From Anaerococcus urinomassiliensis (lineage in GTDB: Bacteria; Bacillota; Clostridia; Tissierellales; Peptoniphilaceae), in assembly GCF_900128425.1 (NCBI RefSeq), contig NZ_LT635782.1, forward strand, positions 1,428,689 through 1,492,688: a stretch of 64,000 bases of DNA. Reading direction: 5' to 3'. The notes beneath the pieces are model-generated. The model made no database searches. It saw only the letters and a list, made by a program, of their open reading frames with translations, and was not told the DNA's origin. Within the stretch, counting starts at the first letter, position 1. The number at the start of each line of letters is the position of its first letter. Of the stretch, positions 2,262 to 31,466 are shown piece after piece. The position numbers and the translations under genes are program-made.

Positions 2262-2715
2262 AGCTTGTCATGAAATTTATCAGCTTCCATGCTTGTGTGA
2301 TTATCTAAATTATTATTAAAATAATTTATAAATCTGAGTTTTATTTGTTCTTCCAAATTCTTAAATTTTTTATCATCCTTAGATTCAACTAAAAAATAGC
2401 ATATATAGATCTGAATTCTTCACAACTGAATATTTTATCTATTAATATTTCTATAATATTTGTATTAATAATACTGTCTACATCCTTTAATACAAATTCT
2501 ATGAATTTCACAAAATTAAATTTTTCAGAAATTAAATCATATAAAATATCCTCTTTTCTTTTATAATAACTATATAATCATCCTGTACTTATTCCCGCTT
2601 ATATATATCATTGTTGACTTATTAAACCTTTTGGAAATAAATACTTTTTTCCCAGTTTTTTTGTATTTGTAATTTTTTTGATTGACGGATAATCTTTATC
2701 TTTTTGAATTTTCAT
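2262..2715 (-). pseudogene. Decayed TetR-family regulator
   Basis: Starting from ATG at 2715, translation shifts frame after about 30 codons. It then resembles a TetR helix-turn-helix interrupted by stops (AGISTG*LYSYYKRKEDIL), followed by about 100 residues of helical C-terminal sequence with more stops. An intact gene would have produced a TetR repressor beside the MATE efflux gene. Ends are approximate. The stretch 2041-2261 is AT-rich and shows nothing else recognisable. Confidence 0.6.
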
Positions 2716-2771
2716 TCACAATGAAAATCTCTCCTTTCAAAGTCTAAATATATTATTTTTTAAAATGTTAT

Positions 2772-4115
2772 TTAGTTACCTTTTACCATTTTTGAAAGAG
2801 CTTTTCCTTGCATTATTAATCCAACTATAATCATCAATAAATCAACTGCCGGCTCTGCCCACCAAACTGCACTACTACCGAAAATTTTAGGAAGTATTAA
2901 CATAGCTGGAACAAATAAAATAAGTTGTCTTAGCATTACAATCTTTCCTGCCTTTTTGCCATCACCAATAGCTTGGAAAAATGTTATGGTCATAACCATT
3001 ACTCCGTATAAAATAAATACTGAGTAAAATAATCTAAGATTATTCAATCCTTGTGATATTATTTCTTCACTTACATTAAATCCTGATAGAATTTCTCTTG
3101 TAAATATTTGTACAGGTATCCAAAATATTGCAGCAAGAACTAGTCCGCCTATTGAAAATACTTTCATAGTTTCTCTTACCCTATCAAATTTTTTAGCACC
3201 AAAATTTGTTCCAACGACCGGTTGAAGTCCTTGGCTCATTCCCCAAAGTGGAATGAATGAAAAGGCATAAATTCTTAGAGTTGCTGCCATTAATATGCCG
3301 TTTGTCTCTCCTCCGTATAAAAAGGCTTGTTTATATAAAAGTGTCTGTTGAATCATAAAGAAAACTTGCATAATCATTGCAGAAACTCCTACACCAAACA
3401 TTTCTTTATAAACTTCTTTATACTTTCTAATTTTTCCTATTTTTACATTTTCACTTTTATTTTTAAAGTAATATAAAGTTACAATAGCTTGAATAATTTG
3501 AGCAACTACGGTTGCAATGGCAGCCCCTTCTATGGCATATTCTCCCATAGCTTTCATAAGTATTGGATCAAGAATAATATTTATAAAGGCTCCCATTGCC
3601 ATAATTCCCATGGCTCTTTTCATAAGACCTTCGCCACGCATAACCATATTAGCTGATTGTGTGAAGTTTACAAAAATAGAGCCTAAAAATATTACCCTTA
3701 AGTACCTAACTCCAAGTTCTTTAATCTCTCCACTTGCACCTACTAAGTCTAGAAAATGTGGAGCTAAAATTATTCCTCCAACTGTAATTATTACGGAAAA
3801 TAAAATTACAAAATAAATCAAATTTCCCATAATCTTATCTACGGTTTCTCTATCACCTTTTCCAAGAGATCTAGATAAAATTGATGCACTTCCCACTCCA
3901 AGTAAAGTTGATGTACCACTGTTAAAAAATGTAAGTGGAAGTGCAACTCCACAAGCGGTCATTGCACTTTGTCCTATAATATTTCCTGCAAAAATTCCAT
4001 CCATTAATGGATATAATCCTATAACTATCATTCCGATTACGGCCGGAATGGATAGTTGAAACATTAAAGATAATGGACTTTTTGTAAGAAGTTGTTCTTT
4101 CATATCCTGTTTCAC
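2772..4115 (-). CDS. MATE family efflux transporter
   Basis: 447-aa integral membrane protein of the MATE (NorM/MepA/DinF-like) family, which exports organic cations or metabolites using a Na+ or H+ gradient. About twelve hydrophobic segments form two repeats. Typical features are SIPAVIGMIVIGLYPLMDGI near the N-terminus, GEGLMKRAM in the first half and GMSQGLQPVVG in the second. The start is GTG at 4115 behind GGAGG with 7-base spacing. It lies 31 bases after the second ABC exporter, in the same direction, and may be the last gene of the transport operon. It could export the siderophore or a toxic intermediate; the substrate cannot be read from sequence. Confidence 0.88.
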   Translation of the reverse strand: MKQDMKEQLLTKSPLSLMFQLSIPAVIGMIVIGLYPLMDGIFAGNIIGQSAMTACGVALPLTFFNSGTSTLLGVGSASILSRSLGKGDRETVDKIMGNLIYFVILFSVIITVGGIILAPHFLDLVGASGEIKELGVRYLRVIFLGSIFVNFTQSANMVMRGEGLMKRAMGIMAMGAFINIILDPILMKAMGEYAIEGAAIATVVAQIIQAIVTLYYFKNKSENVKIGKIRKYKEVYKEMFGVGVSAMIMQVFFMIQQTLLYKQAFLYGGETNGILMAATLRIYAFSFIPLWGMSQGLQPVVGTNFGAKKFDRVRETMKVFSIGGLVLAAIFWIPVQIFTREILSGFNVSEEIISQGLNNLRLFYSVFILYGVMVMTITFFQAIGDGKKAGKIVMLRQLILFVPAMLILPKIFGSSAVWWAEPAVDLLMIIVGLIMQGKALSKMVKGN

Positions 4116-4146
4116 GTACTTACCTCCATTTATAATAAATATTTTC

Positions 4147-5892
4147 TCACAGTATTTTTACGCCATTATTTTTATTTTGCAGCTCTACCATATTTTTATA
4201 AATCCCATTTAAAGAAATTAGTTCATTATGGGTTCCTTGTTCTACAATATTGCCTTCCTTGATTACAATAATATTATCGGCATCTCTAATAGTATTTAAT
4301 CTATGAGCGATAACTAATAATGTTTTATTCTTTACCAATTCACTGATTGCTTCCTGTATATAGCTTTCATTATCCACATCAACACTTGCTGTTGCTTCGT
4401 CAAGAATTACAATAGGAGCATTTTTTAATATACAGCGAGCAATAGAAATTCTTTGTTTTTCACCACCAGATAGAGTTGCACCTCCCTCTCCGATCATTGT
4501 GTCAAATCCATCAGGAAGTTCCATAATAAAATCATAACATCTTGCTTTTTTGGCTGCTTCTATAACTTCTTCCTTAGTTGCATTTTCTTTTCCCATAGCA
4601 ATATTATTAAAAATTGTATCTTGGAATAAATAAACTCTCTGGAAAACCATACTGATTTCTGACATCAATTCAGACAGTGAAACATCCTTTATATTCACTC
4701 CTCTAATCAAAATTTCTCCAGAGTCTACATCCCAGAATCTTGCCAAAAGATTAGCCACTGTGGATTTTCCTCCACCAGACTGTCCAACTAAAGCCGTCAT
4801 TGTATTCTTATTCATTTTGAAACTCATATCATGCAAGACCTCTTTTTCACCATAAGAAAATTTAACATGATTAAAACAAATTTCAGGTTCTGAGGACTCA
4901 GATTTTGGTATATGTTTTTTCCCTACATCTTGTAATTCAGTTTCATTTAACACTTCTTCGATGCGATCCAAAGCAGCGTTCATTACAGTAAGCCTTGTAG
5001 CTTCACCATAAAGTGTTTTTAAAGGGCTAAATAAGTCAAACACAAACAAAATAAGCCCCAACATATATGGAAGTCCCAAAGTTCCTTTATTATTAAGATA
5101 TAAAGCCACTGCTAAAATAAATGTGATACCAATTCCATAAATAATATTTAAACCGGTTGTCCATGGTGTTATTTTATTTTCAAATTTTATTGATGTGTTC
5201 TTTGATGATATAAAATTATCTGTAAGAGATTTAGAATTTTCACCTAAAAGGTTATAACTTTTAATAACACTGATCCCCTCAGCAAATGACAAAACTGCAT
5301 CAGTGAGTTTTTCACTTTGTTCTTGTCTAATAACCGATTCAGATAAAGACATTTTGTTCATGCTATTTGCAAGCAATGTTGCAACCAGTGTCACACACAG
5401 CGCAATCAGTCCAATTCTGTAATCTAAAACAAACATGAATACTGTTAGTACAAGTGTTGATAATACATAGCTCATCATATTGGCAATCGTACTCATGGAA
5501 ACTTCTTCAATAAAAGCCATGTCCGAACTTAAAACAGAATTTATTTTTCCTAAATTACCTGCTGTAAAATATCCCATTGGAAGCTTTCTAAGATGATTAC
5601 CAAGCTGCATTCTTTTATCAGCAAAAATCATAAAGCCGGCTGCACTTTGTAATTTATCACTTAAGAAGTGAACCACAGCTTGTAATAAAACCACTAAAAC
5701 AAGTCCTACTCCTACATATAGAAAAGTTTTGGGAGTATTCGTTTTTTCATAAAATCCAATCAAAACGGTAAATGCAATAAATATAGGCATTTTACTTAAT
5801 ATAGATTCAACAAAGGCAAATATAAATGCGAACTTTATTCTGTTTTTGTATTTACCTGATAGATTTAAAATTCTTGAAATTAGTCTAAACAT
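4147..5892 (-). CDS. ABC transporter half-molecule, YbtQ/IrtB type (permease-ATPase fusion)
   Basis: 581 aa: six-helix exporter-fold membrane domain (about 1-310) fused to a nucleotide-binding domain. Walker A is GQSGGGKST (about residue 370), signature LSGGE, Walker B IVILDEATAS, H-loop IAHRL. The neighbouring half-transporter overlaps it by 8 bases, so the pair probably forms a heterodimer. In Yersinia ybtP/ybtQ and Mycobacterium irtA/irtB, such exporter-fold pairs import ferric siderophores. Linkage to a thiazoline NRPS cluster makes the same role likely here, but direction and substrate are inferred. Confidence 0.85.
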   Translation of the reverse strand: MFRLISRILNLSGKYKNRIKFAFIFAFVESILSKMPIFIAFTVLIGFYEKTNTPKTFLYVGVGLVLVVLLQAVVHFLSDKLQSAAGFMIFADKRMQLGNHLRKLPMGYFTAGNLGKINSVLSSDMAFIEEVSMSTIANMMSYVLSTLVLTVFMFVLDYRIGLIALCVTLVATLLANSMNKMSLSESVIRQEQSEKLTDAVLSFAEGISVIKSYNLLGENSKSLTDNFISSKNTSIKFENKITPWTTGLNIIYGIGITFILAVALYLNNKGTLGLPYMLGLILFVFDLFSPLKTLYGEATRLTVMNAALDRIEEVLNETELQDVGKKHIPKSESSEPEICFNHVKFSYGEKEVLHDMSFKMNKNTMTALVGQSGGGKSTVANLLARFWDVDSGEILIRGVNIKDVSLSELMSEISMVFQRVYLFQDTIFNNIAMGKENATKEEVIEAAKKARCYDFIMELPDGFDTMIGEGGATLSGGEKQRISIARCILKNAPIVILDEATASVDVDNESYIQEAISELVKNKTLLVIAHRLNTIRDADNIIVIKEGNIVEQGTHNELISLNGIYKNMVELQNKNNGVKIL

Positions 5893-7675
5893 TCATTTCA
5901 CCTTTCTTTCTACTGATTTTCCAATCTTTACTAAATAGTGTCGCATCCCATAATTTACGATATTCTACCGAAGATTCTAATAAATCTTTATGCTTTCCAT
6001 TCGCAACTAAACGACCATGATCCATAACCAATATCTGATCTGCATCTACAATAGACGGCAACTTATGTGCAATAACAATTAAGGTTTTCCCTTTTACAAG
6101 TTCACGAATAGCCGCTTCCATTTTTTCTTCATTTTCCGGATCTGCGTAAGCTGTTGCCTCATCAAGCACAACAATCGGAGCATTCTTTAAAATAGCTCTT
6201 GCTAATGATATTCTTTGCCTTTCTCCACCTGAAAGCATCTTTCCTGCTTCTCCAGCTAAAGAATAAATACCATTCGGAAGTCTATTTAAGAACTCCATGC
6301 ACTGGGCTTTTTTAGCTGCTTCTATAACCTCATCATCACTGGCATCTAAATTACCAATGCGAATATTTTCTAAAAGAGAGGTATTAAACAGATATTGGTC
6401 TTGTGCTACATAAGAAATTTGTTTGTTGAGTGATTCCAATCTTATGTCCTGTATGTCCTGTCCACCAATACTTATGCTTCCATCTAAAGCATCATAATAA
6501 TGAATTAAAAGTTTAGCCAAAGTACTTTTTCCTGAACCGGATTCGCCAACAATCGCTGTCTTTTCGCCGGCTCTTGCCGTAAAACTAACATTATGAATAA
6601 CATTCTTAATATAGGTTTCAGGCTGCCCATTTTCTCCCATCTTGCTTAACTGATAGCCAAAGGTAACATTGTCAAATAAAATAGTCTGTCCTGTTCCCTT
6701 AAAATCATTTTCTCCCTGTTTTAAAGGAGCCATATTTAAGGCTTGTTCTAAAGCAGAAATTTTATAATTTAACTGCGGCATAGTTGGTAAAAATCCGAGA
6801 GCTTTCAGTAGTGGTAAGCCTATACTTAAAGAAAGGCATAATATTAATATTAAGTTAGAAAGGCTTGCATAGCCCATATATACAAAGTAGCCACCAAGCG
6901 GCAATGTTAAAATAATTGTGCATGGGAGTAAGGCACTGTATAACGCCATCCATGGCCATGCCGTCTTATACCAAGCAAGTGCATAATCTCTGTAATTACT
7001 GATATCTTTAGAAAGGCGTTCATAAGACTCTGTTTGCTTATTAAATACTTTTACAACTTCCATACCGTTTACATACTCAATAATGGTATTATTCATTTTT
7101 CCACTTGCCATATAATATGGGCCCATTTGTTTCATGCCTACAGAGTACATAATCATCATTGCTAGAACGCTAATCGGAATAGAAGCTAATGACATTAAAG
7201 CTAATCTCCAGTCAATAAAAAACATTGAAACATAAACCATAATAGGTACAATTAAATTAGCTATTCCTTCAGGAAGCGAATGAGCTAAAAGCACTTCTAA
7301 ACTACCAATATCATCCACGAACATTTTTTTGATTGTACCCGTCCCTTTTTCTTCAACAACACCCAATGGAAGGGCTTCCATTTTTTTCTGTAAAGATGTT
7401 CGAAGTCCAAGTAACGTGTTATATGCTGCTTTATGTGAGACATTAAGACCTACTCCACCTAAGACAGCTTGTAATACTAAACAAACTAAAATGCTTATCA
7501 ACAAAAAAACAAGTCTTTCAAATTCCACTTGTTTACCTAAAACAAGTGGATTGATGATTTGATATACAAATAGAAAGGGTAACACACCCATAATTACACT
7601 AATAAGCATAATAAAACTTGCTAAGTGAATTGATTTTTTATGCGTACCAGCATATTCGAAAACCTTATTTAACAT
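5885..7675 (-). CDS. ABC transporter half-molecule, YbtP/IrtA type (permease-ATPase fusion)
   Basis: 596 aa with an N-terminal exporter-type membrane domain (six hydrophobic segments, about 15-310) and a C-terminal ATPase: Walker A GESGSGKST (about 380), signature LSGGE, Walker B IVVLDEATAY, H-loop IAHKL. It overlaps the upstream dual ATPase gene by 11 bases and the downstream half-transporter by 8, so the three are translationally coupled. It lacks the extra siderophore-interacting reductase domain found in mycobacterial IrtA. Proposed job: one half of a heterodimeric siderophore or metabolite transporter. Confidence 0.85.
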   Translation of the reverse strand: MLNKVFEYAGTHKKSIHLASFIMLISVIMGVLPFLFVYQIINPLVLGKQVEFERLVFLLISILVCLVLQAVLGGVGLNVSHKAAYNTLLGLRTSLQKKMEALPLGVVEEKGTGTIKKMFVDDIGSLEVLLAHSLPEGIANLIVPIMVYVSMFFIDWRLALMSLASIPISVLAMMIMYSVGMKQMGPYYMASGKMNNTIIEYVNGMEVVKVFNKQTESYERLSKDISNYRDYALAWYKTAWPWMALYSALLPCTIILTLPLGGYFVYMGYASLSNLILILCLSLSIGLPLLKALGFLPTMPQLNYKISALEQALNMAPLKQGENDFKGTGQTILFDNVTFGYQLSKMGENGQPETYIKNVIHNVSFTARAGEKTAIVGESGSGKSTLAKLLIHYYDALDGSISIGGQDIQDIRLESLNKQISYVAQDQYLFNTSLLENIRIGNLDASDDEVIEAAKKAQCMEFLNRLPNGIYSLAGEAGKMLSGGERQRISLARAILKNAPIVVLDEATAYADPENEEKMEAAIRELVKGKTLIVIAHKLPSIVDADQILVMDHGRLVANGKHKDLLESSVEYRKLWDATLFSKDWKISRKKGEMNV

Positions 7676-9131
7676 AGTTTATCTCCTTACATAAAATTTT
7701 TTTATTCATAAAATCCATGATCAACTCTTCATTTCCTTTTACAGATATTTTTTTATAATCCTTATCACCGAGCATTAAGACGGAATGACAGGTTTTAAAT
7801 AACAGCTCTAAGTCATGAGTAATTATTATAATTGGAAGCTCCTTTGCTTTTTCTGTCATTAATTCGGACATGATTTTCATACTTTTATAATCAAGCCCTG
7901 ATGTTGGTTCATCCAAAATTATTAGCTTACGACCTGATAAAAATGAAGTGATAATTGCCAATCGTTGTTTTTGTCCCCCTGATAATTTCTGTGGGTGATT
8001 GGTTTTCTTATTCCACAAATCTGTATCTTTTAAGTAGTTACGGATTTCTTCTAAATCACTTTCTGAATTTTTATCTTTGCAAAATATCAGTTCATTTTCT
8101 ACTGTGTCTAAAAAAATCTGAGCATCTACATCCTGTAATACACAGTATGAGTTTCTGAGCCTTTCCTTTTGTTTATGCCCATAGTTTACATCTAAATATT
8201 TTTCAGATAATCCGCATAATGCTTTTGCTAAAGTACTTTTCCCAATACCATTAGGACCAATAACTCCCATTATTTCGCTTTTCCCAAGCTCAAAAGTTAA
8301 ATTTTTTATCAAGGTTCTTTTCCCTTGATGGATACAAGCGTTATTTAGTTTTATGTAGCTTTCAGCTACAATCGGTTCTATTTCTGATACCAATTCTCTT
8401 TCATTAAGTGTTCTTAACTCAAGTTCCTTACATTTATCATTACTAAGACTCCCATTCGGAAAAATACCACATATTGTACCATCTTTTATATAAATCAACC
8501 TGTTAAAAATCTCTTTTAAATAATAGAGTCTATGTTCCGCTATAATTATTGTCTTCCCCATCGCTTTCAATCTGAGAAGTATTTCACTGAAGTGTTTTAT
8601 ACTATCGTAATCGAGGCTACTTGATGGCTCATCAAAAAAAATAATATCTGTATCATAGATAAGAGTTCCAGCTATAGCTACTTTTTGCCTTTCTCCTCCT
8701 GATAATTCAAAAATGGATTTTTTGCTGATATGGCTTATTCCTAATAAGTCCATTGCTTCTTCAACCTTTTCTTTTAATGTATCCCTGTCTAAGCCCAAAT
8801 TTTCACCCACTAAAGCAATTTCATCTTCAACAACATCACAAAAAAATTGATCTTTAGGATTTTGAAATACATTGCCAATATATTTAGCTAACTCTCCCTT
8901 TTTATATGCCGTTATATCTTTCCCTAAAATCTTGATTTCTCCGTCCAAATCACCATCATAAAAGGATGGAATAAGCCCGTTTAGTAATCTTAAAAGTGTC
9001 GTTTTTCCGCATCCGGAAAGACCCGTTAAGACTACAATTTCGCCTTTCTTTACGGACATTTTTAAATTTTTTAATATCAAATCTTCTCCATAATGAAAAG
9101 ATTTGATTTCTGCCTCTAAAATATTTTCCAT
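7665..9131 (-). CDS. ECF transporter fused dual ATPase (EcfA-EcfA')
   Basis: 488 aa carrying two ABC ATPase domains in one chain. Domain 1: Walker A GLSGCGKTT (about 38), signature LSGGERQK, Walker B IIFFDEPSSSLD. Domain 2: Walker A GPNGIGKST (about 295), signature LSGGQKQRLA, Walker B LIILDEPTSGLD. Energy-coupling factor (ECF) importers use two such domains with a T subunit and a substrate-binding S subunit. Both partners are directly upstream; the T-subunit gene overlaps this one by 16 bases. It should power uptake of whatever the S component binds. Confidence 0.9.
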   Translation of the reverse strand: MENILEAEIKSFHYGEDLILKNLKMSVKKGEIVVLTGLSGCGKTTLLRLLNGLIPSFYDGDLDGEIKILGKDITAYKKGELAKYIGNVFQNPKDQFFCDVVEDEIALVGENLGLDRDTLKEKVEEAMDLLGISHISKKSIFELSGGERQKVAIAGTLIYDTDIIFFDEPSSSLDYDSIKHFSEILLRLKAMGKTIIIAEHRLYYLKEIFNRLIYIKDGTICGIFPNGSLSNDKCKELELRTLNERELVSEIEPIVAESYIKLNNACIHQGKRTLIKNLTFELGKSEIMGVIGPNGIGKSTLAKALCGLSEKYLDVNYGHKQKERLRNSYCVLQDVDAQIFLDTVENELIFCKDKNSESDLEEIRNYLKDTDLWNKKTNHPQKLSGGQKQRLAIITSFLSGRKLIILDEPTSGLDYKSMKIMSELMTEKAKELPIIIITHDLELLFKTCHSVLMLGDKDYKKISVKGNEELIMDFMNKKILCKEINYVK

Positions 9132-9817: not shown

Positions 9818-9819
9818 CT

Positions 9820-13116: not shown

Positions 13117-13126
13117 AAAACCTCTT

Positions 13127-19001: not shown

Positions 19002-19270
19002 TAGATTTCACCTTCAAAAATAACATCGTCATTTAATTCTATCTCGTCTAAACATTTTTCTACAAAGTCTATTGGTGTAACAAATAAAAACACGGATTTT
19101 AGTTTTATATTTATAGCATATCTTTGATTTAATATCGAGATAAACTTTGTTGCATTAAGACTGTCTAAACCTCTTTCTAATAAGTTATCGTCTTTATTGA
19201 TATCTTCATTTAAAATTTCGCACCAAATATCACAAACTATTTTCAATTTTATATCTTTCTTACTTTTCAT
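19001..19270 (-). CDS. Stand-alone peptidyl/acyl carrier protein
   Basis: 89 aa with the 4'-phosphopantetheine site in LLERGLDSLNATKF (Ser about residue 37) and the usual four-helix length. It sits between the hydrolase gene (4-base gap) and NRPS2 (1-base overlap). It would tether an intermediate in trans, perhaps for the detached cyclization protein encoded just upstream. The phosphopantetheinyl transferase at 29469-30161 should activate it. Confidence 0.85.
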   Translation of the reverse strand: MKSKKDIKLKIVCDIWCEILNEDINKDDNLLERGLDSLNATKFISILNQRYAINIKLKSVFLFVTPIDFVEKCLDEIELNDDVIFEGEI

Positions 19271-21737: not shown

Positions 21738-24700
21738 CTATTTTCTTATAGAAAAAATAAATTTAGCAAGTTCACTAGGAGTAGGTTTCTCAAAAATAGT
21801 TTTGATGCTAAGTTGAATATCAAATTTTTCATTTAATAGCTTAACTAATCTAACAACTTTAAGAGAATCTCCTCCTTCAATAAAAAAGTTACTATTACTC
21901 CTAATGCATTTTGTTGATAAAATTTTTTCAAATGATTTTATTACCTTATATTCTATGTCATAGCATTTGTTTTTTTGTACAATATTAACATTTTCATATA
22001 GAGTCTTCTTTATATTTTTATTAGAAGATATTGCTTCTATCTCAGCTTCATCTGAATCCAAAGTATCGATATAAATATTATCCCAATTATCGTTTTGAAT
22101 CATTAAATCAATAATATTTTTATATTCATCAAACATTTTTGCAATAGTATTTTCTTCAAATAATTCTTTTATATAATCCCAAGATAAATATAATCCTCCT
22201 TTTAAAACAAACACTTGATGATCTAACCAAACTTGAGATGATTGAGAAATACTATAACTTAGGTTATCAATCCACTTTTCTTCTCTACTGTCATCAATGC
22301 CAATTCCACTAGTGAATACAATTGGCATTACTGATTCGATATAATTATTGATTTTTTTTCTTATTTTTCTTTCAAATTCAATTGAACTATATAACGAATG
22401 AGAGATATCATCTAGTAACTGATTCTGAACATCAGTGATTTTAGAATATAAACTTTCTCCACACTTTTCTTTAATTTCCAATAAGTTTAAAGTTGTAAAG
22501 TCACCTATCACCCCATCTATATCATTATGAAGTTGCTCTCTATTGAACCTCGTAATATTTAATGCAAAATGTTTGTTACTTGACCATTTCTTAAGTGTTT
22601 CACTATATGCAGTAATAAGTGCAGAACTGGTAGTGAATCCATATTTTTTACAAATCTCCTTAAAAATATTCCATTTATTTTCAGATAAATAAAAATATTT
22701 TCTTACAAATCTTACTTTTTTAACGTTTCCTTCATAATTTATTAATGGTAGTTTAGGATATTCTGGAAAGCTTTCAATTCTATCTTCCCAATAATTCTTA
22801 TCTTCTATATATTTTTTTGTATGTCTCAGCTTTCCTAAGGCTAAAACATAATCTCTATAGCTTATATCAATATCCGGAATCAACTTTCCATCATACAACA
22901 TTTGCCATTGTTTTAGCACATGAAACATACTCCAGCCATCAAATATTATGTTTTCAAACCTAACATGTAGTTTGACAATGCCTTTTTTTAGCTTAGTCAC
23001 CCTAACATCAAATAAAGGCCATTTATCGTAATGTATTGTTTTATTATAAATTTCGTTTCTGATTGTATTGATTTTATCCAAAATTCTATCTTCTTCAGTA
23101 TAACTTAAATCAAAAACTTGAATTTTATAATATGGAACGTTAGGCAGTATTTGTTGCTGTCCTTCATTCAATATTATAGCCCTCATCATATCATGTTTTA
23201 TTATTAATTCATTAAAAGACTTTTCTAATTTTCCGATATCTATATTTTTCAACTCTACTTCAAAATAACAATTAGTAGATATACCGGTTAAATTATGTCC
23301 CCCATTCATTCCTATCCAATAGGCAAATTGTATGTCAGTCAGAGGAAAAGGCTTATGCCTATTATCTATATCCATTAAAATCTGATTCTTCATTTCTTCA
23401 CTATTGATATGATGTTTTTTCCTATTTCCTACTACAATAGATAGTTTTTCTATCGTCGGATTCTCAAAAATATCTTTTACTGAAATCTTAACATTATACA
23501 AACTGCTAATCTTTCCAACTATCTCAGTCGCCGTTAGAGAATCTCCACCAATAGAAAAATAATTATTGTCTACACCTATATTTTCGTTATTAAAAATATC
23601 CTTCCATATTTTTAGTATAGTAAGCTCCAATTCATTTTTAGGTTTTACATTATAATTAATTTCTAATTTTTCTTTTTTATTTTTATTCTTTAACTTATTT
23701 TTCAATTTCTTCCTATCAACTTTTCCATTTTTATTTAATGGAATGTCATCTACTTTATAGAAATTTGCAGGAATCATATAGCTTGGTATTTCATGTGATA
23801 AATAACTTCTTAATTTTTCAAAGGTAGACTTGTTTTCTTTTAAGTTAGCTATTATAAAAGTTATAAAATTAGAGCATTCTGTCCTTTTTTCACTGTTTAT
23901 ATAGAGGACTTCACAATCATTATTGTCAAAATCATCTGGTCTTACTTCGTTAAATGGCTGCTCATTTATTATATCTGCTGTAATAATAGGCAGTAGGTTA
24001 TTATTTTTTAATTCATTACCAATAATAAGTCCATTAACTTTCAACACTTTTAGTACTCCTTCTATAAGAGTCTTTTTGGCATTACTTCTGTGAATCGAGT
24101 TTAAAACTATAGCAATATCAAAATTATCTTCATCTAAAGAAGTTTCTAAGTTATCATTTATACAAACATATTTAAATTTATTATCATTCTCCAAATCAGA
24201 TAGATTATTTCTAAAGTAGATAGAACTATCAGCATAAATATACTCACTAATAAACTCTTTAAGCTCTTTAAAAATAGTAGTAGTAAGTTCACTATTTCTA
24301 GTTCCATATTCTAAGATTTTTATATTTTTTTTATTATTTAATCTTGCATAAGCCTTTATTGAATTTATAATGCTATTAATTGATTCTTCATAGCCTAAAA
24401 GTTCTTCTGTAAATTTTGACATATAGGATTTATTTGAATCTGAATAAAAGGCTTCTATAGGATCTTTTTCTCCCGACAAAATCTTTATAAGCTCCAATTC
24501 TAAATCCTTTAAATAATTGCCTATTTCATTATTGCAACTTTCTTCATTTATGAAAATCTCATCTTCTCTTAATGAATATTTTTCATTCTTAAATTCTAAA
24601 TATTTTAAAGATAAAAGTTTATTTATCCAATTTTCAATTATAAATCTATTTCTTTTTGAATCCTTAATTTTATTATAAATATCAACAATTGAGTAGCTAT

Positions 24701-27700
24701 TATTTACTAAATCAAGTTCAAAGCTTTTAAAGACATTTATAATAGTTTTGGCGACCAGCCTATTTATTTTTTCATTTTGTGTCCTTATATCCTCATAAGA
24801 GATTTCTTCCACTTCCTCAATAAAAGAAGCGTCTATTTTTTCTAAACATTTATTAGTATTAAAGTTATCAGAATCCTTGTCAATTTTTACAAAGGCTACT
24901 AGATTTTTGCTGTTTACTTTTTCTATAAAATCAACTACTACTTTTTTAACACCATCAAATTTACTTATAGCATCTTCGATTTCCCCAAGTTCAATTCTAT
25001 GACCTTTAATTTTTACTTGAGTGTCTTTTCTTCCAAGAAATTCAATAGTACCATCATTCCAAAATCTTCCATTATCTCCAGTTCTATACCACCTAATCCC
25101 ATCTTCTTCAAAATACTTATTATTAGTTAGGTCTTCATCTCCATGATAACATTTAGCGACACCTACCCCACCAATTAAAAGTTCTCCCTTAACATAATTA
25201 GGGCATATTCTACCTAATTCATCTACTACTCTATAGACTTGGTTTTTAAGTGGTCTTCCATATGGAATTGACATCCAATCTTTTGGTATTTCTCTTGGTG
25301 CATTTAAATAATTTGACCAAATTGAAGCTTCCGTTGCACCACCCATAGCAACAACTATAGAATTTTCTTTTTCGCTTATCTTATAAAATCTTCCTGGTAA
25401 GTCTTTTGCTATCCAATCTCCCGATAACATAACAATTCTAAGTGGTAAGTTTTTCTTTTCACCCTCTGCCATAGTTACGAGCATGTCAAAAAGTATAGGT
25501 ACAGAGTCCCACACACTTACCTTATATTTTTCAATAATTCTAATCCATTCATCAGAATTACGATAATTATCTTCATTAGTTGTTATTAGTGTTCCACCTA
25601 CACCAAGTACTCCAAAAATATCATATACTGATAAGTCAAAGTCTATTGCTGACACCATAAGTAACGTATCATTTGAATTAATAGAATATTTTTCATTTAA
25701 ATCATTAATAGTATTAATGGCACTTGTGTGCATGATCTCAACACCCTTTGGCACTCCTGTAGTACCTGATGTCATTATTATATAGGCTGAGTCAAAAGGT
25801 CTTACTTCTATAGGCTTATCAAGACCTAAGAATTTATCTATAGTCTTGTCTAAATCAATTAAAGAAACTTCTCTCGTATCTAGTTTGCAATCTTCTATTG
25901 TTTTATTATCACTGATTACAAACTTTATACCTATTTGTTCGTATATTTTACTTCGCCTTTCACTAGGTTGATTTATTCCAATAGCAACATATGCTGCTCC
26001 AGCAAAGAGTATTCCAAATATAGCATAAATTTGCTTGCTTGATCTCGGGAGAGTAATGCCCACATATTCTCCCTTTTTTATTCCATTTTCCTTTAAATAT
26101 CCTGCTATATTTAAGGATTTTTCATATAAGTCCATATAGGATATTTCTTCTTTAGTTTCTGAATCTATAATTGCAATTTTTTCTGGATTTTCTTTTACAT
26201 TTTTTATAAATCCGTCATATAATCTTTCATCAGGAAAGTTTAATGGAAGAATTGATTGAAGCTCTTTTTCTCTTGCTAGTTTTTGATTTTCTGATAGCAC
26301 ATCAAATTTGCTTTCCCAATTTTCTTTTTCTGTTAGTCTTAAAAGTTGTTTTTCTAAAGAATTTAACATATCATCTAACATTTTTTCAGGGAAAAGTTCA
26401 TCTACACTATCCCAGCATAATACTAAATCTCCATCTTTTATATAAGATTGGAAATCTAACCATACTCCTGGAGTTTGTGATACCATATATGTAATTTTGC
26501 CCAAAGCTTCCCTTGAAATTTCAGTTTCTAGTGGATAGTCTATGTTGCACGCAAAAACTACAGGTGCTACATTAAGGCTTGTCCCCTGTGATTTTGATAT
26601 ATCCCTTTGAACTTGTACTCCACTATAAGATGAATGACTAACATTGTCTATAAAGGTTTTGCTTATTCTATTCAAAGTTTCTAGGAAAGAAGTATCATTT
26701 TTTCTTTCATGCTCTACTAATAAGATATTTGTAAAGTCTGCCACCATATCTTTCATGTTTTCGTTTGAAAGATCTCTATTAAATAATGGTAAGTTTATAA
26801 AAAACTTATCTTGGTTAGTCCATCTTTCTAGAATTAAATCATATGCAGTTAATAAAACCATTGATGGCGTAGATTTATAGCTTGCTGCAAGCTCTTTTAT
26901 TTTGCTCCACTTATCTTTTTCAATAACTCGTTTTCTTCTAGTAAATCTTGTTTCTTTGATTTGTTCAGGATCTTTTCTTAATGGTAAATTAGGTCTTTCT
27001 ATTTCAAATGAGTCTATTTTTTCTTTCCAAAACTCTTGGTCTTTTTTATAAATTTCAGAGTCTACTTCAAGATTATTTATATAGTCTTTAAAAGTATAAC
27101 TGTTTAGATTGTCTAATTCTTTTCCTAAATACAATTCTCCTAATTCTTTTAAAAGAATACTCATACTCATGACATCGGCAACAAGTAAATCTAAATCAAA
27201 GAAAATTTTATTTCTATTCTGTGACAGATTTGCAAGTTTTAATCCTGCGACTTCTCCCATTTCTACTCTGAGTTTTCTATGCGATAAATTTTCTCGTATT
27301 TCATCTAATCTAATTTTTCTTTCTTTTTCATCTAAATTAGATAAGTCAAAAACTTCAATTTCTTCACTAAAAGGTTTATCTAATATTTCTTGCTTTCCAT
27401 CTTCTGTGAATCTTGCCCTGAGCATTGGATGTCTATATTGAAGTTTATTCCATGCATCATTCAATCTTTTACAATCTATTTCTTCTCCGTCTATTTCAAT
27501 ATAGGCATGACAACCCACTCTACCTAGAGTTTGATCATCACTTCTGCCTATAAAATAAGAATATTGAACATCTGTAAGATTGAATGAATCTTTACCATCA
27601 TTTGATTTCTTATTATCTTTTGAAGGTTTCTTAATAATTTTTGAATTATCTACTAGGTCAAACCATGAATTAAGTGTAGGCTTCTCAATGAGCTTTGCGA

Positions 27701-27872
27701 AGGAAATTCTAATTCCTTCTTTTTTAAGAACTCCTGAAAGTTGCATTACTTGCATGGAACTTAAGCCTTTTTCTATTAAATTATCATTTTCCCCTATTTT
27801 TGATTTTTGTAAGGTATCTTTTAACCATTTTACAATTATTAATTTAATTTGTTTCCCTACGTTTGGTTCCAT
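21738..27872 (-). CDS. NRPS1: ArCP-Cy-A(E)-PCP-Cy-PCP, HMWP2/Irp2-like
   Basis: 2044 aa with the domain order of yersiniabactin HMWP2. Aryl carrier (LIEKGLSSMQV, Ser about 38); Cy1 with canonical DLLVAD (about 230); adenylation domain (TSGTTGVPKG about 705; FDLSVYDIF, VWDSVP and GGATEASIW fit the cysteine code). A methyltransferase-like insertion with a degraded SAM site LEYGTRNSEL (about 1190) corresponds to the epimerase-type domain of PchE/HMWP2. PCP1 has GGDSL (about 1442); Cy2 has ENIIFD (about 1642), where the first Asp is Glu; PCP2 has GGDSL (about 2000). It should build an aryl-thiazoline-thiazoline chain from an aryl acid and cysteine. ATG 27872 follows GAGGAG. Confidence 0.93.
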   Translation of the reverse strand: MEPNVGKQIKLIIVKWLKDTLQKSKIGENDNLIEKGLSSMQVMQLSGVLKKEGIRISFAKLIEKPTLNSWFDLVDNSKIIKKPSKDNKKSNDGKDSFNLTDVQYSYFIGRSDDQTLGRVGCHAYIEIDGEEIDCKRLNDAWNKLQYRHPMLRARFTEDGKQEILDKPFSEEIEVFDLSNLDEKERKIRLDEIRENLSHRKLRVEMGEVAGLKLANLSQNRNKIFFDLDLLVADVMSMSILLKELGELYLGKELDNLNSYTFKDYINNLEVDSEIYKKDQEFWKEKIDSFEIERPNLPLRKDPEQIKETRFTRRKRVIEKDKWSKIKELAASYKSTPSMVLLTAYDLILERWTNQDKFFINLPLFNRDLSNENMKDMVADFTNILLVEHERKNDTSFLETLNRISKTFIDNVSHSSYSGVQVQRDISKSQGTSLNVAPVVFACNIDYPLETEISREALGKITYMVSQTPGVWLDFQSYIKDGDLVLCWDSVDELFPEKMLDDMLNSLEKQLLRLTEKENWESKFDVLSENQKLAREKELQSILPLNFPDERLYDGFIKNVKENPEKIAIIDSETKEEISYMDLYEKSLNIAGYLKENGIKKGEYVGITLPRSSKQIYAIFGILFAGAAYVAIGINQPSERRSKIYEQIGIKFVISDNKTIEDCKLDTREVSLIDLDKTIDKFLGLDKPIEVRPFDSAYIIMTSGTTGVPKGVEIMHTSAINTINDLNEKYSINSNDTLLMVSAIDFDLSVYDIFGVLGVGGTLITTNEDNYRNSDEWIRIIEKYKVSVWDSVPILFDMLVTMAEGEKKNLPLRIVMLSGDWIAKDLPGRFYKISEKENSIVVAMGGATEASIWSNYLNAPREIPKDWMSIPYGRPLKNQVYRVVDELGRICPNYVKGELLIGGVGVAKCYHGDEDLTNNKYFEEDGIRWYRTGDNGRFWNDGTIEFLGRKDTQVKIKGHRIELGEIEDAISKFDGVKKVVVDFIEKVNSKNLVAFVKIDKDSDNFNTNKCLEKIDASFIEEVEEISYEDIRTQNEKINRLVAKTIINVFKSFELDLVNNSYSIVDIYNKIKDSKRNRFIIENWINKLLSLKYLEFKNEKYSLREDEIFINEESCNNEIGNYLKDLELELIKILSGEKDPIEAFYSDSNKSYMSKFTEELLGYEESINSIINSIKAYARLNNKKNIKILEYGTRNSELTTTIFKELKEFISEYIYADSSIYFRNNLSDLENDNKFKYVCINDNLETSLDEDNFDIAIVLNSIHRSNAKKTLIEGVLKVLKVNGLIIGNELKNNNLLPIITADIINEQPFNEVRPDDFDNNDCEVLYINSEKRTECSNFITFIIANLKENKSTFEKLRSYLSHEIPSYMIPANFYKVDDIPLNKNGKVDRKKLKNKLKNKNKKEKLEINYNVKPKNELELTILKIWKDIFNNENIGVDNNYFSIGGDSLTATEIVGKISSLYNVKISVKDIFENPTIEKLSIVVGNRKKHHINSEEMKNQILMDIDNRHKPFPLTDIQFAYWIGMNGGHNLTGISTNCYFEVELKNIDIGKLEKSFNELIIKHDMMRAIILNEGQQQILPNVPYYKIQVFDLSYTEEDRILDKINTIRNEIYNKTIHYDKWPLFDVRVTKLKKGIVKLHVRFENIIFDGWSMFHVLKQWQMLYDGKLIPDIDISYRDYVLALGKLRHTKKYIEDKNYWEDRIESFPEYPKLPLINYEGNVKKVRFVRKYFYLSENKWNIFKEICKKYGFTTSSALITAYSETLKKWSSNKHFALNITRFNREQLHNDIDGVIGDFTTLNLLEIKEKCGESLYSKITDVQNQLLDDISHSLYSSIEFERKIRKKINNYIESVMPIVFTSGIGIDDSREEKWIDNLSYSISQSSQVWLDHQVFVLKGGLYLSWDYIKELFEENTIAKMFDEYKNIIDLMIQNDNWDNIYIDTLDSDEAEIEAISSNKNIKKTLYENVNIVQKNKCYDIEYKVIKSFEKILSTKCIRSNSNFFIEGGDSLKVVRLVKLLNEKFDIQLSIKTIFEKPTPSELAKFIFSIRK

Positions 27873-27882: not shown

Positions 27883-29469
27883 TCAATCTATTAATTTTAA
27901 TTTTTTTCTATCAATTTTTCCTAATGCTGTCAACGGCCATGAATCAATATATTTTATATCATCTGGTAATTTAAATTCAGCTACATTATTATTAACTAAA
28001 AATTTCCTAACGTCCTCTAAAGAAAGTTCTTCCTTTTCATTTTTTAATATGAATATCCCTATCTTCTCACCTAAAAGTGGATCTGGTATCCCCACAACTT
28101 GAACATCTTCTATATTTTCATTTGATAGTAAAATATCTTCAATTTCAGATGGAGTTATCTTTTCTCCAGCCCTATTTATTGTTTCTGAAATTCTTCCAAC
28201 TACCTGATAATTCCCATCTTTTAGTTTCCTTACCTTATCTCCAGTTTTGAAATATAAATCTTTGTCTATACATCTTTTATTTACTTCTGGGAGCTTATAA
28301 TAGCCATAAATTGTATAAGAGCCTCTAACTATAAGTTCTCCGTAATCTTCATCTTTGACTTCTTCTCCATCTTCATCAACTATTAACAATTCATCAAACT
28401 CACTTATAGGTTTACCTTGAGTTGTAAATATAGTTTTACTATCATCATCTAAAGAAGTTGTCATAATCAGACCTTCAGCTATTCCGAAAATTTGTTGTAA
28501 TTTGCACCCAAATTCTCTTTCTATTTTTTCTGCAAGCTTTTCTTCTAAAACCGAACCTCCAACTTGAAGAACCTTTAATGAAGATATATCATAATCATCT
28601 ACCTTTATAAAATCTATACATATATTTGCCATAGCAGGAACTAATCCCGTTATCGTAACCTCCTCTTCCTCAATTAAAGGCAAGATTTCATCTGGGCTTG
28701 TTACTGGGCATAAAACAACTTTGCCGCCTATAAAAAATGTTCCTAATATCCCTGGGCAACATAAAGGAAAGTTGTGAGCAATAGGAAGAGAGGCTAGATA
28801 AATACTGTCTTGATCCATTTTACATCTCTTTGCAGTTTCTTTTGCTACATAGATATAATCGCAGTGTCTCCTTGGTATCAATTTTGGTATCCCAGTGGTA
28901 CCACCCGATAAAAGTAATAATCCTATTTCTTTATAGTCAACATCTATATGTTGATATATATAATCTTTATCATTGAGATTGTAAAAATTTTTATATCCTT
29001 GATTATCCCCAAGAATATAAACTTTAAAATCTATGTTTAATTCTTCTCTTACTTCTCTAATCATATCCACATATGAAAATCCAAGATATTTACCCTTAGA
29101 TATATATGCTTTTGCTCCTGATTTTTCTAATATTCCCTTTATTTCATTTTTCCTGTGAGCTGGAAGGGATAATACAGGAATCAAACCAATCTTAAACATG
29201 GCAAAAAGGATAATAACAAATTCATGGCAATTAGGAAGTTGAAGAACGATTCTATCTCCCTTTTTAAATCCAGCTTTCAATAAACCATTGGCATATTGGC
29301 AAGCTTTTCTATTTAATTCTTGATATGAAAGTTCAACATCTCCATCTACTAAGGCAATTTTATCCCCATATTTTTTAGCACAATCTTCAATAAATTCTCC
29401 TAAGGTCATATGCGGCCATACTTGTTCATCATAAATTTTTTCTAATTTTTCTTTTAATTCAATGTTCAT
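27883..29469 (-). CDS. Aryl-AMP ligase, probably salicylate-specific (YbtE/PchD/MbtA-like)
   Basis: 528-aa stand-alone adenylation enzyme of the EntE/DhbE family that activates an aryl acid and loads it on the aryl carrier of NRPS1. Motifs: LSGGTTGIPKL (P-loop), HNFPLCCPG, FGIAEGLI, KTGDKV and GKIDRKKL. In DhbE the residue in HNYPLSSPG that contacts the 3-hydroxyl is Ser; here it is Cys, as in salicylate ligases such as PchD and MbtA, which favours salicylate. The start at 29469 is chosen because ATG overlaps the previous stop (TAATG) behind GGAGG. No salicylate synthase is in the window. Confidence 0.9.
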   Translation of the reverse strand: MNIELKEKLEKIYDEQVWPHMTLGEFIEDCAKKYGDKIALVDGDVELSYQELNRKACQYANGLLKAGFKKGDRIVLQLPNCHEFVIILFAMFKIGLIPVLSLPAHRKNEIKGILEKSGAKAYISKGKYLGFSYVDMIREVREELNIDFKVYILGDNQGYKNFYNLNDKDYIYQHIDVDYKEIGLLLLSGGTTGIPKLIPRRHCDYIYVAKETAKRCKMDQDSIYLASLPIAHNFPLCCPGILGTFFIGGKVVLCPVTSPDEILPLIEEEEVTITGLVPAMANICIDFIKVDDYDISSLKVLQVGGSVLEEKLAEKIEREFGCKLQQIFGIAEGLIMTTSLDDDSKTIFTTQGKPISEFDELLIVDEDGEEVKDEDYGELIVRGSYTIYGYYKLPEVNKRCIDKDLYFKTGDKVRKLKDGNYQVVGRISETINRAGEKITPSEIEDILLSNENIEDVQVVGIPDPLLGEKIGIFILKNEKEELSLEDVRKFLVNNNVAEFKLPDDIKYIDSWPLTALGKIDRKKLKLID

Positions 29470-30161
29470 TAATTTTCCTCCAAGCATATTGCCCCGAAAT
29501 ATTTGTCATCATAGTTTAATGACTTTAATCTACTTATTGTATTCCTTTTACTATCATTAATTTCTATAAATTCATTTCCAAAAGAAATTATTTCAATCTC
29601 TTTTAAATTCCTTACAAGACCAATACCATCACATTTAAGATAAGCTTCTTTTGCAGTCCAATATCTATAGAAACTGATTATGTTATTATCTATATTTATA
29701 ATTTCATCTTTAGTAAAACAATTTTCTAATATATCCTTAAACTCAAATTGATAATTTATTTTTTCAACATCTATTCCTACTTCTATTTTAGAAAAAGCTA
29801 ACAAGACCAAGTCTTCTGTATGGGATATGTTAAACTTTAATCCTAGAGTGTTTTCTACATAAGGCTTATTGTTTTTATCCCTCTTGACTCTTAAATCATT
29901 AATTCCTTTTTCGAGTAAACCTTTTAAGGTCAAATTAAGTATTGCCCTTGATGCTAGATAATTAATTTTTGCTATTTCTGATTTATAATCTTCTGATTTT
30001 ATTATCTCCTCTTTAGTTAAATAAGGAAGTAATTTTTCTTCTAATAATTTATCTGTATAAGCCTTAATTAGTATTAAATTATTACTAGCTAATTTATCTT
30101 TTAAATCTTCTAAAGTAAGAAAATCATTAATTTTTCTTATTTCATATTCTTCAATTTTCAT
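29469..30161 (-). CDS. 4'-phosphopantetheinyl transferase (Sfp type)
   Basis: 230 aa with the Sfp family motifs FNISHTEDLVLLAFS, VGIDVEKI (Mg-binding Asp) and FYRYWTAKEAYLK. It transfers phosphopantetheine from CoA to the Ser of the six carrier domains encoded downstream. The start overlaps the end of the thioesterase gene by 11 bases. Cognate Sfp-type enzymes are usual in NRPS clusters. Confidence 0.92.
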   Translation of the reverse strand: MKIEEYEIRKINDFLTLEDLKDKLASNNLILIKAYTDKLLEEKLLPYLTKEEIIKSEDYKSEIAKINYLASRAILNLTLKGLLEKGINDLRVKRDKNNKPYVENTLGLKFNISHTEDLVLLAFSKIEVGIDVEKINYQFEFKDILENCFTKDEIINIDNNIISFYRYWTAKEAYLKCDGIGLVRNLKEIEIISFGNEFIEINDSKRNTISRLKSLNYDDKYFGAICLEEN

Positions 30162-30903
30162 TTACTTTTATAAACTCTTTTATCTCTTTAATGACACTTT
30201 CAGGAGATGTATTGACAAACATATGCTTGCCATCGATATATCTATAAGTGAATTCTTTTGTGGTATAATCTTGCCATTTTATAAGTTCATCTAAAGTCAT
30301 TTCTTGATCTTTATCTCCCATAAGACCTAGTATAGGTGATTCTAATTTCTCAAATTTTGTGTCTTGATAGTCTTCATCTATTGCAAAATCTGCCCTAAGT
30401 GTTGGCAAGAAAATAGAAATTAAATCCTTATTGTCTAAAATTTCTTTTGGTGTTCCTTCATATCTTCTTAAGCCTTCTATAAATCCGTCATCATCAAGAT
30501 GATAAATTGGATGAGGTTCTTTATATAATGGTGCTCGTCCTCCTGATATTATTATTCCTCTTGGATTTATGTAATCCGAATTTTTAATTCTTAATGCAAG
30601 TTCATAAACTATTTTTGTTCCCATACTGTGTCCAAATAAATAATAAGGTTTTCTAAAATTAAAATTTTCTTTCATATCTTCAAATAAATTATCCACTAAG
30701 ATGTTAATGTCACTTATAGCCTTTTCAGAAAACCTGTTTTCTCTTCCTGGATACTGGGCAACAAGTAATTTTATATCTTCAAACTCATCTTTCCATTTTC
30801 TAAAGGCAGACACTCCACCACCTGCAAACGGAAATATAACAAGACTAGCTTTAATATTGTTTTCGTCTAATTCTTTATTTAGCATTTCAAAATTTTTTGA
30901 CAT
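30151..30903 (-). CDS. Type II thioesterase (YbtT/GrsT-like)
   Basis: 250 aa. FPFAGGG oxyanion region, nucleophile elbow GHSMG (Ser about 93), GDKD acid and a C-terminal GKHMF histidine. These external thioesterases clear wrongly loaded carriers. It is the first gene of the biosynthetic operon. ATG 30903 follows AAAAGGTG; an upstream in-frame ATG at 30936 lies inside the operator and has no ribosome site. The promoter is at 30953-30981. Confidence 0.9.
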   Translation of the reverse strand: MSKNFEMLNKELDENNIKASLVIFPFAGGGVSAFRKWKDEFEDIKLLVAQYPGRENRFSEKAISDINILVDNLFEDMKENFNFRKPYYLFGHSMGTKIVYELALRIKNSDYINPRGIIISGGRAPLYKEPHPIYHLDDDGFIEGLRRYEGTPKEILDNKDLISIFLPTLRADFAIDEDYQDTKFEKLESPILGLMGDKDQEMTLDELIKWQDYTTKEFTYRYIDGKHMFVNTSPESVIKEIKEFIKVNEN

Positions 30904-30928
30904 AAATTCACCTTTTAATATATTTTTT

Positions 30929-30944
30929 GTTAGCAATAGCTAAC
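30929..30944 (-). promoter_or_regulatory. Probable DtxR-like operator 1
   Basis: GTTAGCTATTGCTAAC is a 6-bp perfect inverted repeat with a 4-base centre, just downstream of the -10 box of the biosynthesis operon. It resembles DtxR/IdeR-type boxes built on TTAGNNTAGC/GCTAA half-sites. A related GTTAGTAACTAAT lies upstream of the regulator gene itself (31454-31466). Confidence 0.6.
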
Positions 30945-30981: not shown

Positions 30982-31011
30982 TGAGTTTTTGAACGTTTTT
31001 GTAAAATAATT

Positions 31012-31057
31012 AAAAAAAATAGCATAAAAAACTTATTTAAAAGTTATCTATGCTATT
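31012..31057 (-). terminator. Rho-independent terminator after the DtxR-like gene
   Basis: Minus strand: AATAGCATA pairs with TATGCTATT around an inner ACTT/AAGT stem, followed by eight T residues. It lies directly after the stop codon, separating the regulator from the biosynthesis operon. Confidence 0.8.
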
Positions 31058-31059
31058 AA

Positions 31060-31431
31060 TTATAAGGTTTCATTAAAATGTTTTTTTAATTTTTTAAACG
31101 TTTCATCTGATATAACGTGTTCTATAAGACAAGCTTCACTTTCTGCTTGTTTAGGATTAACTCCAAGTTTAATGAATACGCTAGTAAGATACATATGTTT
31201 TTTATACATCTTTTCACAAAATTTTTTTGATTCGTCTGTTAAACGAATTATTTTATCATCTCCATAAGTTATCCTGCCTTTATTGTCAAGTTTTTTTAGC
31301 ATTCTTGTAACCGTCGGTCTTTTGTAATCCAAATAGTTAGCAATGTCTATATTTCTAACCTCTTCATTTTCCAAAGATAAAATATATATGGCTTCTAAAT
31401 AATTTTCTTCAGCAAATTCCCTGTGTAAAAT
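31060..31431 (-). CDS. DtxR/MntR-family metal-dependent repressor with apparent ATT start
   Basis: The family N-terminus is present in frame (REFAEENYLEAIYILSLENEE), followed by the winged-helix recognition region (IANYLDYKRPTVTRMLKKL) and metal-site residues (KKHMYL, EAEC-like SEACLIEH). No ATG, GTG or TTG precedes this N-terminus. The frame opens after a stop at 31435-31437, and the best start is ATT at 31431, 6-7 bases after AGGGGGAG, giving 123 aa. A TTG at residue 16 would cut off the first helix. The short form lacks an SH3-like domain, as in MntR. Such proteins repress siderophore genes when metal is plentiful. Confidence 0.75.
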   Translation of the reverse strand: MLHREFAEENYLEAIYILSLENEEVRNIDIANYLDYKRPTVTRMLKKLDNKGRITYGDDKIIRLTDESKKFCEKMYKKHMYLTSVFIKLGVNPKQAESEACLIEHVISDETFKKLKKHFNETL

Positions 31432-31453
31432 AAATTACTCCCCCTCTTAAATT

Positions 31454-31466
31454 GTTAGTAACTAAT
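31454..31466 (-). promoter_or_regulatory. Possible operator of the DtxR-like gene
   Basis: GTTAGTAACTAAT holds the inverted repeat TTAGT-A-ACTAA, close to the half-site of the palindrome at the biosynthesis promoter. It lies 23 bases before the proposed start, consistent with autoregulation. The rest of 31467-31616 is very AT-rich with no gene. Confidence 0.4.

Follow-up and report, generated by a model that had tools for sequence, protein, structure and literature searches.

A mosaic locus for a predicted equibactin-type metallophore carried by an integrative and conjugative element of Anaerococcus urinomassiliensis

We have analysed a stretch of 64,000 nucleotides (the window; contig C10:1428689-1492688) from the genome of Anaerococcus urinomassiliensis, which comprises 2.19 Mb in 10 contigs. 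It contains a complete-looking locus of 19 co-directed genes, extending from window position 31431 down to 2772 on the minus strand, that is probably an iron-regulated metallophore system of the equibactin type, carried as cargo by an integrative and conjugative element (ICE) of anaerobic Gram-positive cocci and diversified by recombination between such elements. At the level of sequence, the gene set, the specificity codes, the ends of the ICE, the horizontal transfer and the mosaic structure are established. Positions below are those of the window unless preceded by a contig (C) or locus (L) name; genomes carry G numbers, and G014, G021, G023, G031 and G034 belong to the same GTDB genus as the host, Anaerococcus.

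Results

Gene content of the locus

The genes named below are long open frames on the minus strand, each with a family match in profile searches. The original prediction had listed an aryl ligase, a phosphopantetheinyl transferase, two nonribosomal peptide synthetases (NRPSs), an imide reductase, a thioesterase, a DtxR-like regulator, an ABC pair and an ECF importer, and all of them were recovered as open frames with family matches, the importer as its S, T and ATPase components.

31060..31431, minus: DtxR-type metal-dependent repressor (PF02742/PF01325); apparent start codon ATT
30151..30936, minus: type II thioesterase (G-H-S-M-G); recombination junction inside, near 30833
29469..30161, minus: 4'-phosphopantetheinyl transferase (PPTase)
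27883..29487, minus: aryl-AMP ligase (TIGR02275, 534.6 bits, below the 723.55-bit equivalog cut-off)
21738..27872, minus: NRPS1, 2044 aa, HMWP2/EqbE-like, chimeric: ArCP-Cy1-A-inserted domain-PCP1-Cy2-PCP2
20309..21733, minus: stand-alone heterocyclisation-type condensation domain (N....D..S)
19275..20294, minus: alpha/beta hydrolase (G-W-S-E-G); may release the chain, the role proposed for EqbN
19001..19270, minus: stand-alone peptidyl carrier protein
14094..19001, minus: NRPS2, 1635 aa: Cy-like domain (N....D..S), A domain with inserted methyltransferase, two carrier domains
13127..14101, minus: Rossmann protein, distantly saccharopine-dehydrogenase-like; weak EqbM-like candidate
12031..13155, minus: thiazolinyl imide reductase, Irp3/YbtU family (TIGR01761, 208 bits, cut-off 188.8)
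11304..12014, minus: S-adenosylmethionine-dependent methyltransferase
10558..11196, minus: TetR-family regulator
9820..10416, minus: ECF transporter S component, MptD/Trep_Strep family
9116..9817, minus: ECF transporter T component, CbiQ family
7665..9131, minus: ECF transporter fused double ATPase
5885..7675, minus: ABC half-transporter with permease and ATPase fused, architecture as in EqbK/YbtP; 96% identity to Peptostreptococcus sp. D1
4147..5892, minus: ABC half-transporter with permease and ATPase fused, architecture as in EqbL/YbtQ; 96% identity to Peptostreptococcus sp. D1
2772..4115, minus: MATE-family exporter (family match)

The dtxR gene appears to start at an in-frame ATT (31429-31431) behind a strong ribosome-binding site. 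In a scripted scan of 29 related clusters this ATT is kept in all 22 that have the short form of the gene, where no ATG, GTG or TTG start covers the conserved N-terminus of the protein; in the cluster L008 the frame is longer and begins at a standard start codon. The Rossmann protein (324 residues) gave a low-confidence fold model (mean pLDDT 58, good only in the first ~95 residues), and its best PDB matches are lysine and carboxyspermidine dehydrogenases at TM scores of about 0.3 or less.

Predicted assembly line

The alignment of NRPS1 with PchE covers residues 26-977 and 1354-1477, and the second heterocyclisation (Cy) domain of NRPS1 aligns with Irp2 over residues 1501-1929. The code of its adenylation (A) domain, DLYDMSMI, is the one published for EqbE (cysteine), and that of NRPS2, DLFNLSLI, is the one published for PchE, also for cysteine. 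The ligase code NFCAQGII is one position away from that of EqbD (NFCGQGII), YbtE having NFCAQGVL, and is predicted to fit salicylate. A methyltransferase is inserted within the A domain of NRPS2, where two carrier repeats can be read by eye and Pfam gives one weak match. Pfam finds no polyketide or thioesterase domain in either NRPS, which agrees with the earlier claim that a polyketide module is missing.

The carrier element and its target

The ICE ends at C10:1422007-1422027 and C10:1513510-1513539, which gives it a length of ~91.5 kb, and it extends 6.7 kb to the left and 20.9 kb to the right of the window. Homology among relatives ends at these termini; the right end in the host shows more than three departures from the family pattern and was located by alignment. 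To the right of the locus follow genes for MobC, a relaxase, a giant helicase, a topoisomerase, an NlpC/P60 protein, VirB4-like (by weak DUF87/AAA_10 matches) and VirB6-like proteins and a coupling protein, and to its left lie three large serine recombinase genes (window 1-840 and L003). We class the element as a conjugative ICE on its relaxase, coupling protein, VirB4-like ATPase, VirB6-like protein, recombinase and two ends. The features of the window that lie outside the locus are as follows.

1..840, minus: serine recombinase, first of three, N-terminal part; gene interrupted just outside the window
1555..2028, minus: sigma-70 region 4-like regulator, present at this end in most related clusters
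31620..49640 (approximately), minus: nested Tn916-family element, ~18 kb, between dtxR and mobC
31787-33004, inside the nested element: Tn916-family int
35603-37537, inside the nested element: tet(M)
45796-47001, inside the nested element: Rep_trans gene
47179-48564, inside the nested element: FtsK-like gene
50117..50485, plus: MobC/NikA-like accessory protein of the larger ICE
50485..51855, plus: relaxase, MobA/VirD2 family, of the larger ICE
52044..53186, minus: SSB-like protein of the ICE (weak Pfam match, below cut-off)
53220..63623, minus: giant SNF2-type helicase polyvalent protein of the ICE; type IV secretion genes then follow rightward (L005)

The nested element has the integrase, Tet(M), Rep_trans and FtsK-type genes and the length (~18 kb) on which we assign it to the Tn916 family; Tn916 itself combines such an integrase with Tet(M) in about 18 kb, and the Rep_trans gene would be Orf20-like. 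Unlike a carrier of the NRPS locus, it is a passenger: in relatives that lack it, the dtxR side and the mobC side are adjacent, and we rejected it as the vehicle of the locus because those relatives have the same neighbours. The original prediction had placed the cluster between a serine recombinase and relaxase/helicase genes. Both sides stand (the latter at 50117-63623), while the Tn916-type element between locus and relaxase and the interruption of the recombinase gene had escaped it, as had the mosaic structure and the missing salicylate synthase. In relatives too both flanks lie within the element, and in 15 of 29 clusters, the window's included, the stretch that holds the cluster also has a relaxase with 95-97% identity to that of the window.

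Two other candidates for the borders were discarded. The stop codon of the last recombinase was considered as the left end, and the conserved terminus lies instead at C10:1422007-1422027. Inverted matches near the ends proved to be copies of an insertion sequence, IS21-like by eye, and no exact shared 18-base words that could represent terminal inverted repeats (108 bp in ICESe2) were found at the ICE ends.

Among 130 genomes of the host's family, the left terminus of this ICE family occurs 24 times, in 20 genomes, and the right terminus 25 times, in 22 genomes, the reversed-pattern control giving 0 in both cases (termini examined at loci L131-L179). Each of the 24 left ends continues into G-K-[ST]-[ST], where the chance level is 22 of the 3808 GG in the window, judged by a slightly wider test; all 25 right ends are preceded by G-x-x-G-x-G, for which no chance count was made. 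By eye, the interrupted targets are mostly ABC transporter ATPases, and in the host, where the termini lie at L003:13319-13339 and L006:822-851, the target is an AAA ATPase related to PDC-S06 (PADLOC), a defence candidate. Read in this way, the termini place the insertion exactly in the Walker A codons of ABC/AAA ATPase genes. It is important to consider that the insertions are not all independent for this cargo: some targets are orthologues and some elements lack the NRPS genes.

Mosaic structure and horizontal transfer

Two sources can be recognised along the locus. From 31564 to 23674 the window shares 94-95% DNA identity with G031 and Anaerococcus prevotii (G023), and from 23566 to 10322 it shares 92% with L008, a cluster of Peptostreptococcus sp. 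D1 whose head has only 47-74% protein identity to the window. Position 10322 is the end of that DNA stretch, beyond which both ABC proteins are still 96% identical; an end of the L008 match between the two ABC genes was rejected on that ground. For the triple window/G031/L008, 1643 of 1745 informative sites to the left of the break agree with G031, and to its right 61 of 75 agree with L008. The maximum chi-square at this junction is 502, against at most 25.9 in 1000 shuffles, and the break at 23612/23611 corresponds to residue ~1420 of NRPS1, the start of PCP1. A second junction, at 30833-30821 in the thioesterase gene, reaches a maximum chi-square of 851 (at most 24.0 in shuffles): all 125 informative sites before it side with G044 and 914 of 941 after it with G031. 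Other relatives join the window at NRPS1 residue ~99 (the ArCP/Cy1 border) or part from it at residue ~519, the end of Cy1 (five clusters), or at residues 963-997 (the A8 region), and in the DNA map the sharing with other clusters stops at 26316, 24880-24982 or 27575/27903. The alignments establish the locus as a mosaic of an Anaerococcus-like head and a Peptostreptococcus-like remainder.

This sharing is horizontal, because the rpoB genes of 20 carriers are only 67-85% identical in DNA to that of the host (for the distant ones, over the aligned part only). The head is 94% identical in G031 (rpoB 83%) and 92% in G001 (rpoB 67%), the backbone 96% in G128 (rpoB 68%) and the tail 92% in L008 (rpoB 69%); the horizontal spread proposed earlier is thus borne out. 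G044, from another genus, is 99.3% identical over 51861-30178, with an identical dtxR-side Tn916 junction but a different assembly line, which identifies it in sequence terms as the same composite element with exchanged cargo. Two clusters are found in 5 of 23 family genomes; therefore the setting needed for exchange between elements exists.

At 63710, immediately ahead of the helicase gene, the identity of the backbone to relatives falls from 95-97% to about 80%, which in the alignment marks another recombination border of the transfer region.

Distribution of related clusters

At a threshold of E <= 1e-3, the head of NRPS1 (residues 1-525) was matched in 24 of 130 family genomes (24 of 108 complete), the match in G122 being only 34%. 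Of 391 genomes drawn evenly across the class, 12 match at E <= 1e-100; these include five from the window's own family, the host among them. Our typed set has 29 members, namely 28 clusters from 23 family genomes and L008; G122 (34%) and G111:C17 (44%, with many stops) were left out before counting. Judged by eye from the layout of frames, these 29 clusters show 13 assembly-line layouts, the window's included, and DNA coverage of part of the biosynthetic region, a typing that omitted some downstream NRPS frames, gives 14 types. Near-identical heads or ICE backbones are joined to different tails across clusters. The ligase codes vary as well (NFCAQGII, NFGAQGII, NFCIIGSI, KFCAQGLI and KFSAQGLV), so that the aryl cap may differ between clusters.

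The relaxases beside the clusters are 95-97%, about 78%, 62% (L008) or 51-52% identical to the window's, and with several relaxase classes related cargo therefore rides on more than one backbone. The cluster of A. prevotii sits on a plasmid: in the plasmid collection the only NRPS1 match above 60% identity, and also the best relaxase match (51.8%), is the plasmid NC_013164.1 of A. prevotii DSM 20548.

Elements that retain the importers

In G113 the ICE backbone (96.8%) runs to the position equivalent to 49652 and resumes ~10 bases on at 11579, with 98.8% identity through the remaining cargo. G113 thus lacks dtxR, all genes between it and the methyltransferase gene and the first 60% of the latter, but retains the TetR, ECF, ABC and MATE genes (L110, L109, L127), so that its cargo is an uptake-only derivative of the window's locus. 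G117 has transporters of another type beside a Tn916-type element with a different flank on the int side. The relaxases of both genomes are 97% identical to the window's, and at E <= 1e-3 the heterocyclisation head matches neither genome. On these sequences we read both elements as probable non-producers that keep an importer; an assembly error in G113 is possible.

Other observations

Inside the left ICE end lies an RNase LS (RnlA-like) toxin gene with an RNase H domain and a small gene (L003:13402-15280), in the place of which relatives have a 275-aa gene. The ICE has a gene for a Dsr1-like protein on one side and, on the other, a restriction-modification pair of type II (L003:86-3517, L006:9108-13280). 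The pemK RNA family is matched at 1167-1231, outside the Tn916-type element, and at 33367-33467, and matches to the SQ2397 and sRNA_0030 RNAs lie inside that element.

Discussion

Relation to known systems

The equibactin locus, eqbA-N on ICESe2 of Streptococcus equi, was described as the first such system in streptococci; its iron uptake was measured, salicylate had to be supplied in defined medium, and EqbN was proposed as the chain-release enzyme (PMC3672683). As far as that account goes, the window shares with it the gene order dtxR-thioesterase-PPTase-ligase-HMWP2-like NRPS (eqbA-E), an identical cysteine code (DLYDMSMI, its Table 1), a thiazolinyl reductase, an importer and a fused ABC pair, the lack of a polyketide synthase and a serine-recombinase ICE, and the description of the eqb locus includes no salicylate synthase. 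The Rossmann protein, weakly linked to saccharopine dehydrogenases, and the alpha/beta hydrolase are candidates for EqbM- and EqbN-like enzymes, the former a weak one. The differences lie mainly in the assembly line: EqbE and EqbG are given one A domain in all, whereas NRPS2 of the window has a second one for cysteine, together with two carriers and no thioesterase found; consequently, since the single-A-domain feature fails, we do not name the product equibactin. The window also has an additional stand-alone Cy domain and carrier protein, a methyltransferase, a TetR regulator and a MATE exporter, and three recombinase genes in its ICE against one in ICESe2. Both the likeness to equibactin and yersiniabactin stated in the original prediction (by eqbA-E order, identical EqbE code and a ligase code one position off) and the extra genes beyond the eqb set are therefore supported.

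With yersiniabactin (PMC3672683) the window shares the HMWP2-like NRPS1, a YbtU-like reductase and the architecture of the ABC pair, but has neither the polyketide module (HMWP1) nor a salicylate synthase gene, and it lies on a Gram-positive ICE. The conjugative transposon 023_CTn1 of Clostridioides difficile RT023 also bears an equibactin-like cluster, with the difference that its gene list has a salicylate synthase and a DAHP synthase (PMC6814731). Natural swapping of NRPS modules and subdomains, also between species and genera, has been described (PMC8097286); in that account it is mainly the A-core that is exchanged, and the words mobile and conjugative do not occur in its text. Here, in contrast, whole heads and tails swap on conjugative elements, also with another family, at junctions in the ArCP/Cy1, Cy1/A, A8 and A/PCP regions. 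A literature search of titles and abstract beginnings, with subscription papers mostly outside it, gave none on such clusters in Anaerococcus, Finegoldia or Peptoniphilus, and none on their mosaic exchange on ICEs or on a Walker A target.

Proposed function and points against it

In the mechanism that we propose, the DtxR protein would repress the locus in metal-replete cells. The ligase would load imported salicylate on the ArCP, NRPS1 would add cysteine, from which Cy1 would form a thiazoline, and the chain would pass via Cy2/PCP2. The stand-alone condensation and carrier proteins would then hand the chain to NRPS2 for a second cysteine, probably methylated; one ring would be reduced and the free alpha/beta hydrolase would release the chain. 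MATE may export the product and the ABC/ECF proteins import it. By recombination at domain borders or close to them, heads, modules, tails and transporters would be spliced, which could create new chemotypes.

Several points weigh against this proposal. First, a simple oligo-thiazoline is at odds with the active sites: the full D-x4-D-x2-S heterocyclisation motif occurs only in Cy1, the first position being E in Cy2 and N in the stand-alone domain and the Cy domain of NRPS2, and the number of thiazolines is uncertain because only Cy1 keeps D....D..S. Second, the host genome has no match to PF00425, the salicylate synthase family, which was found in 14 of 14 controls. Such a gene is missing in 14 of the 20 carrier genomes searched (24 carriers in all), the host included; four of the six genomes having one (G013, G020, G025, G034) have it ~9 kb from a cluster. 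With no PF00425 gene in the genome, the aryl acid, if the cap is salicylate, must come from outside. Third, ICESe2 was compared through its published gene list and codes rather than its sequence, and the metallophore product and its iron binding are predictions from sequence. Fourth, the junction in the thioesterase gene lies within the gene, away from any border, and it is presumed that the conserved ends of cargo and backbone act as homology arms in a cell that holds two elements. Finally, the first serine recombinase, a single 572-aa frame in relatives, is interrupted here by ~418 bases at L003:19582-20000 that are lacking in the nine relatives that align there; therefore this copy of the ICE may not move now. 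L006 has a copy of these ~418 bases, close to genes that were judged IS21-like by eye.

Three other explanations were weighed. The product could be a secreted thiazoline other than a siderophore (a zincophore, a copper chelator or an antibiotic), with the DtxR, ECF and ABC proteins handling another metal. We regard this as unlikely: the MptD-family S component and the DtxR-type regulator do leave the metal unfixed, but gene order and codes match the equibactin locus, for which the published account gives measured iron uptake (PMC3672683). It is also improbable, in our view, that the locus has fallen into decay on an element that can no longer move and makes nothing now. The interrupted recombinase would suit such decay, as would the NRPS frames that are shortened or split in G125, G037, G111 and G128; against it, the cargo frames of the window are open and of similar length where a close relative exists, and the other two recombinase genes have open frames. 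An old cluster passed on vertically and lost in places, in the manner of the ancient superproducer argued for other NRPS families (PMC8097286), is very improbable as the origin of shared heads with different tails, given head, backbone and tail at 92-96% in G001, G128 and L008 despite rpoB at 67-69%, the sharp breakpoints in NRPS1 and the thioesterase gene, and one Tn916 insertion junction common to two genera with different cargo.

Significance

An iron-regulated metallophore system on an ICE, diversified by recombination, remains our preferred reading. Within one family of anaerobic cocci, equibactin-type cargo occurs in 23 of 130 genomes with 13 layouts, mostly on related ICEs, and the breakpoints are sharp enough to act as a natural record of the NRPS borders that tolerate splicing. 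A more far-reaching proposal, for which we see the chances as evenly balanced, is a mobile combinatorial metallophore system: an ICE family inserting in Walker A codons of ABC-type ATPases, interchangeable heads, cores, tails and importers spliced across genera and families, many chemotypes, producers dependent on foreign salicylate, and uptake-only cheaters. If true, a public-goods conflict would be played out between mobile elements. Two questions can now be put to the test: whether the diversity of metallophores, and cheating, in the human anaerobic flora are driven by mobile elements, and whether salicylate from outside is the limiting input. The larger picture is that of a shared pool of spliced, mobile metallophore assembly lines among human-associated anaerobes.

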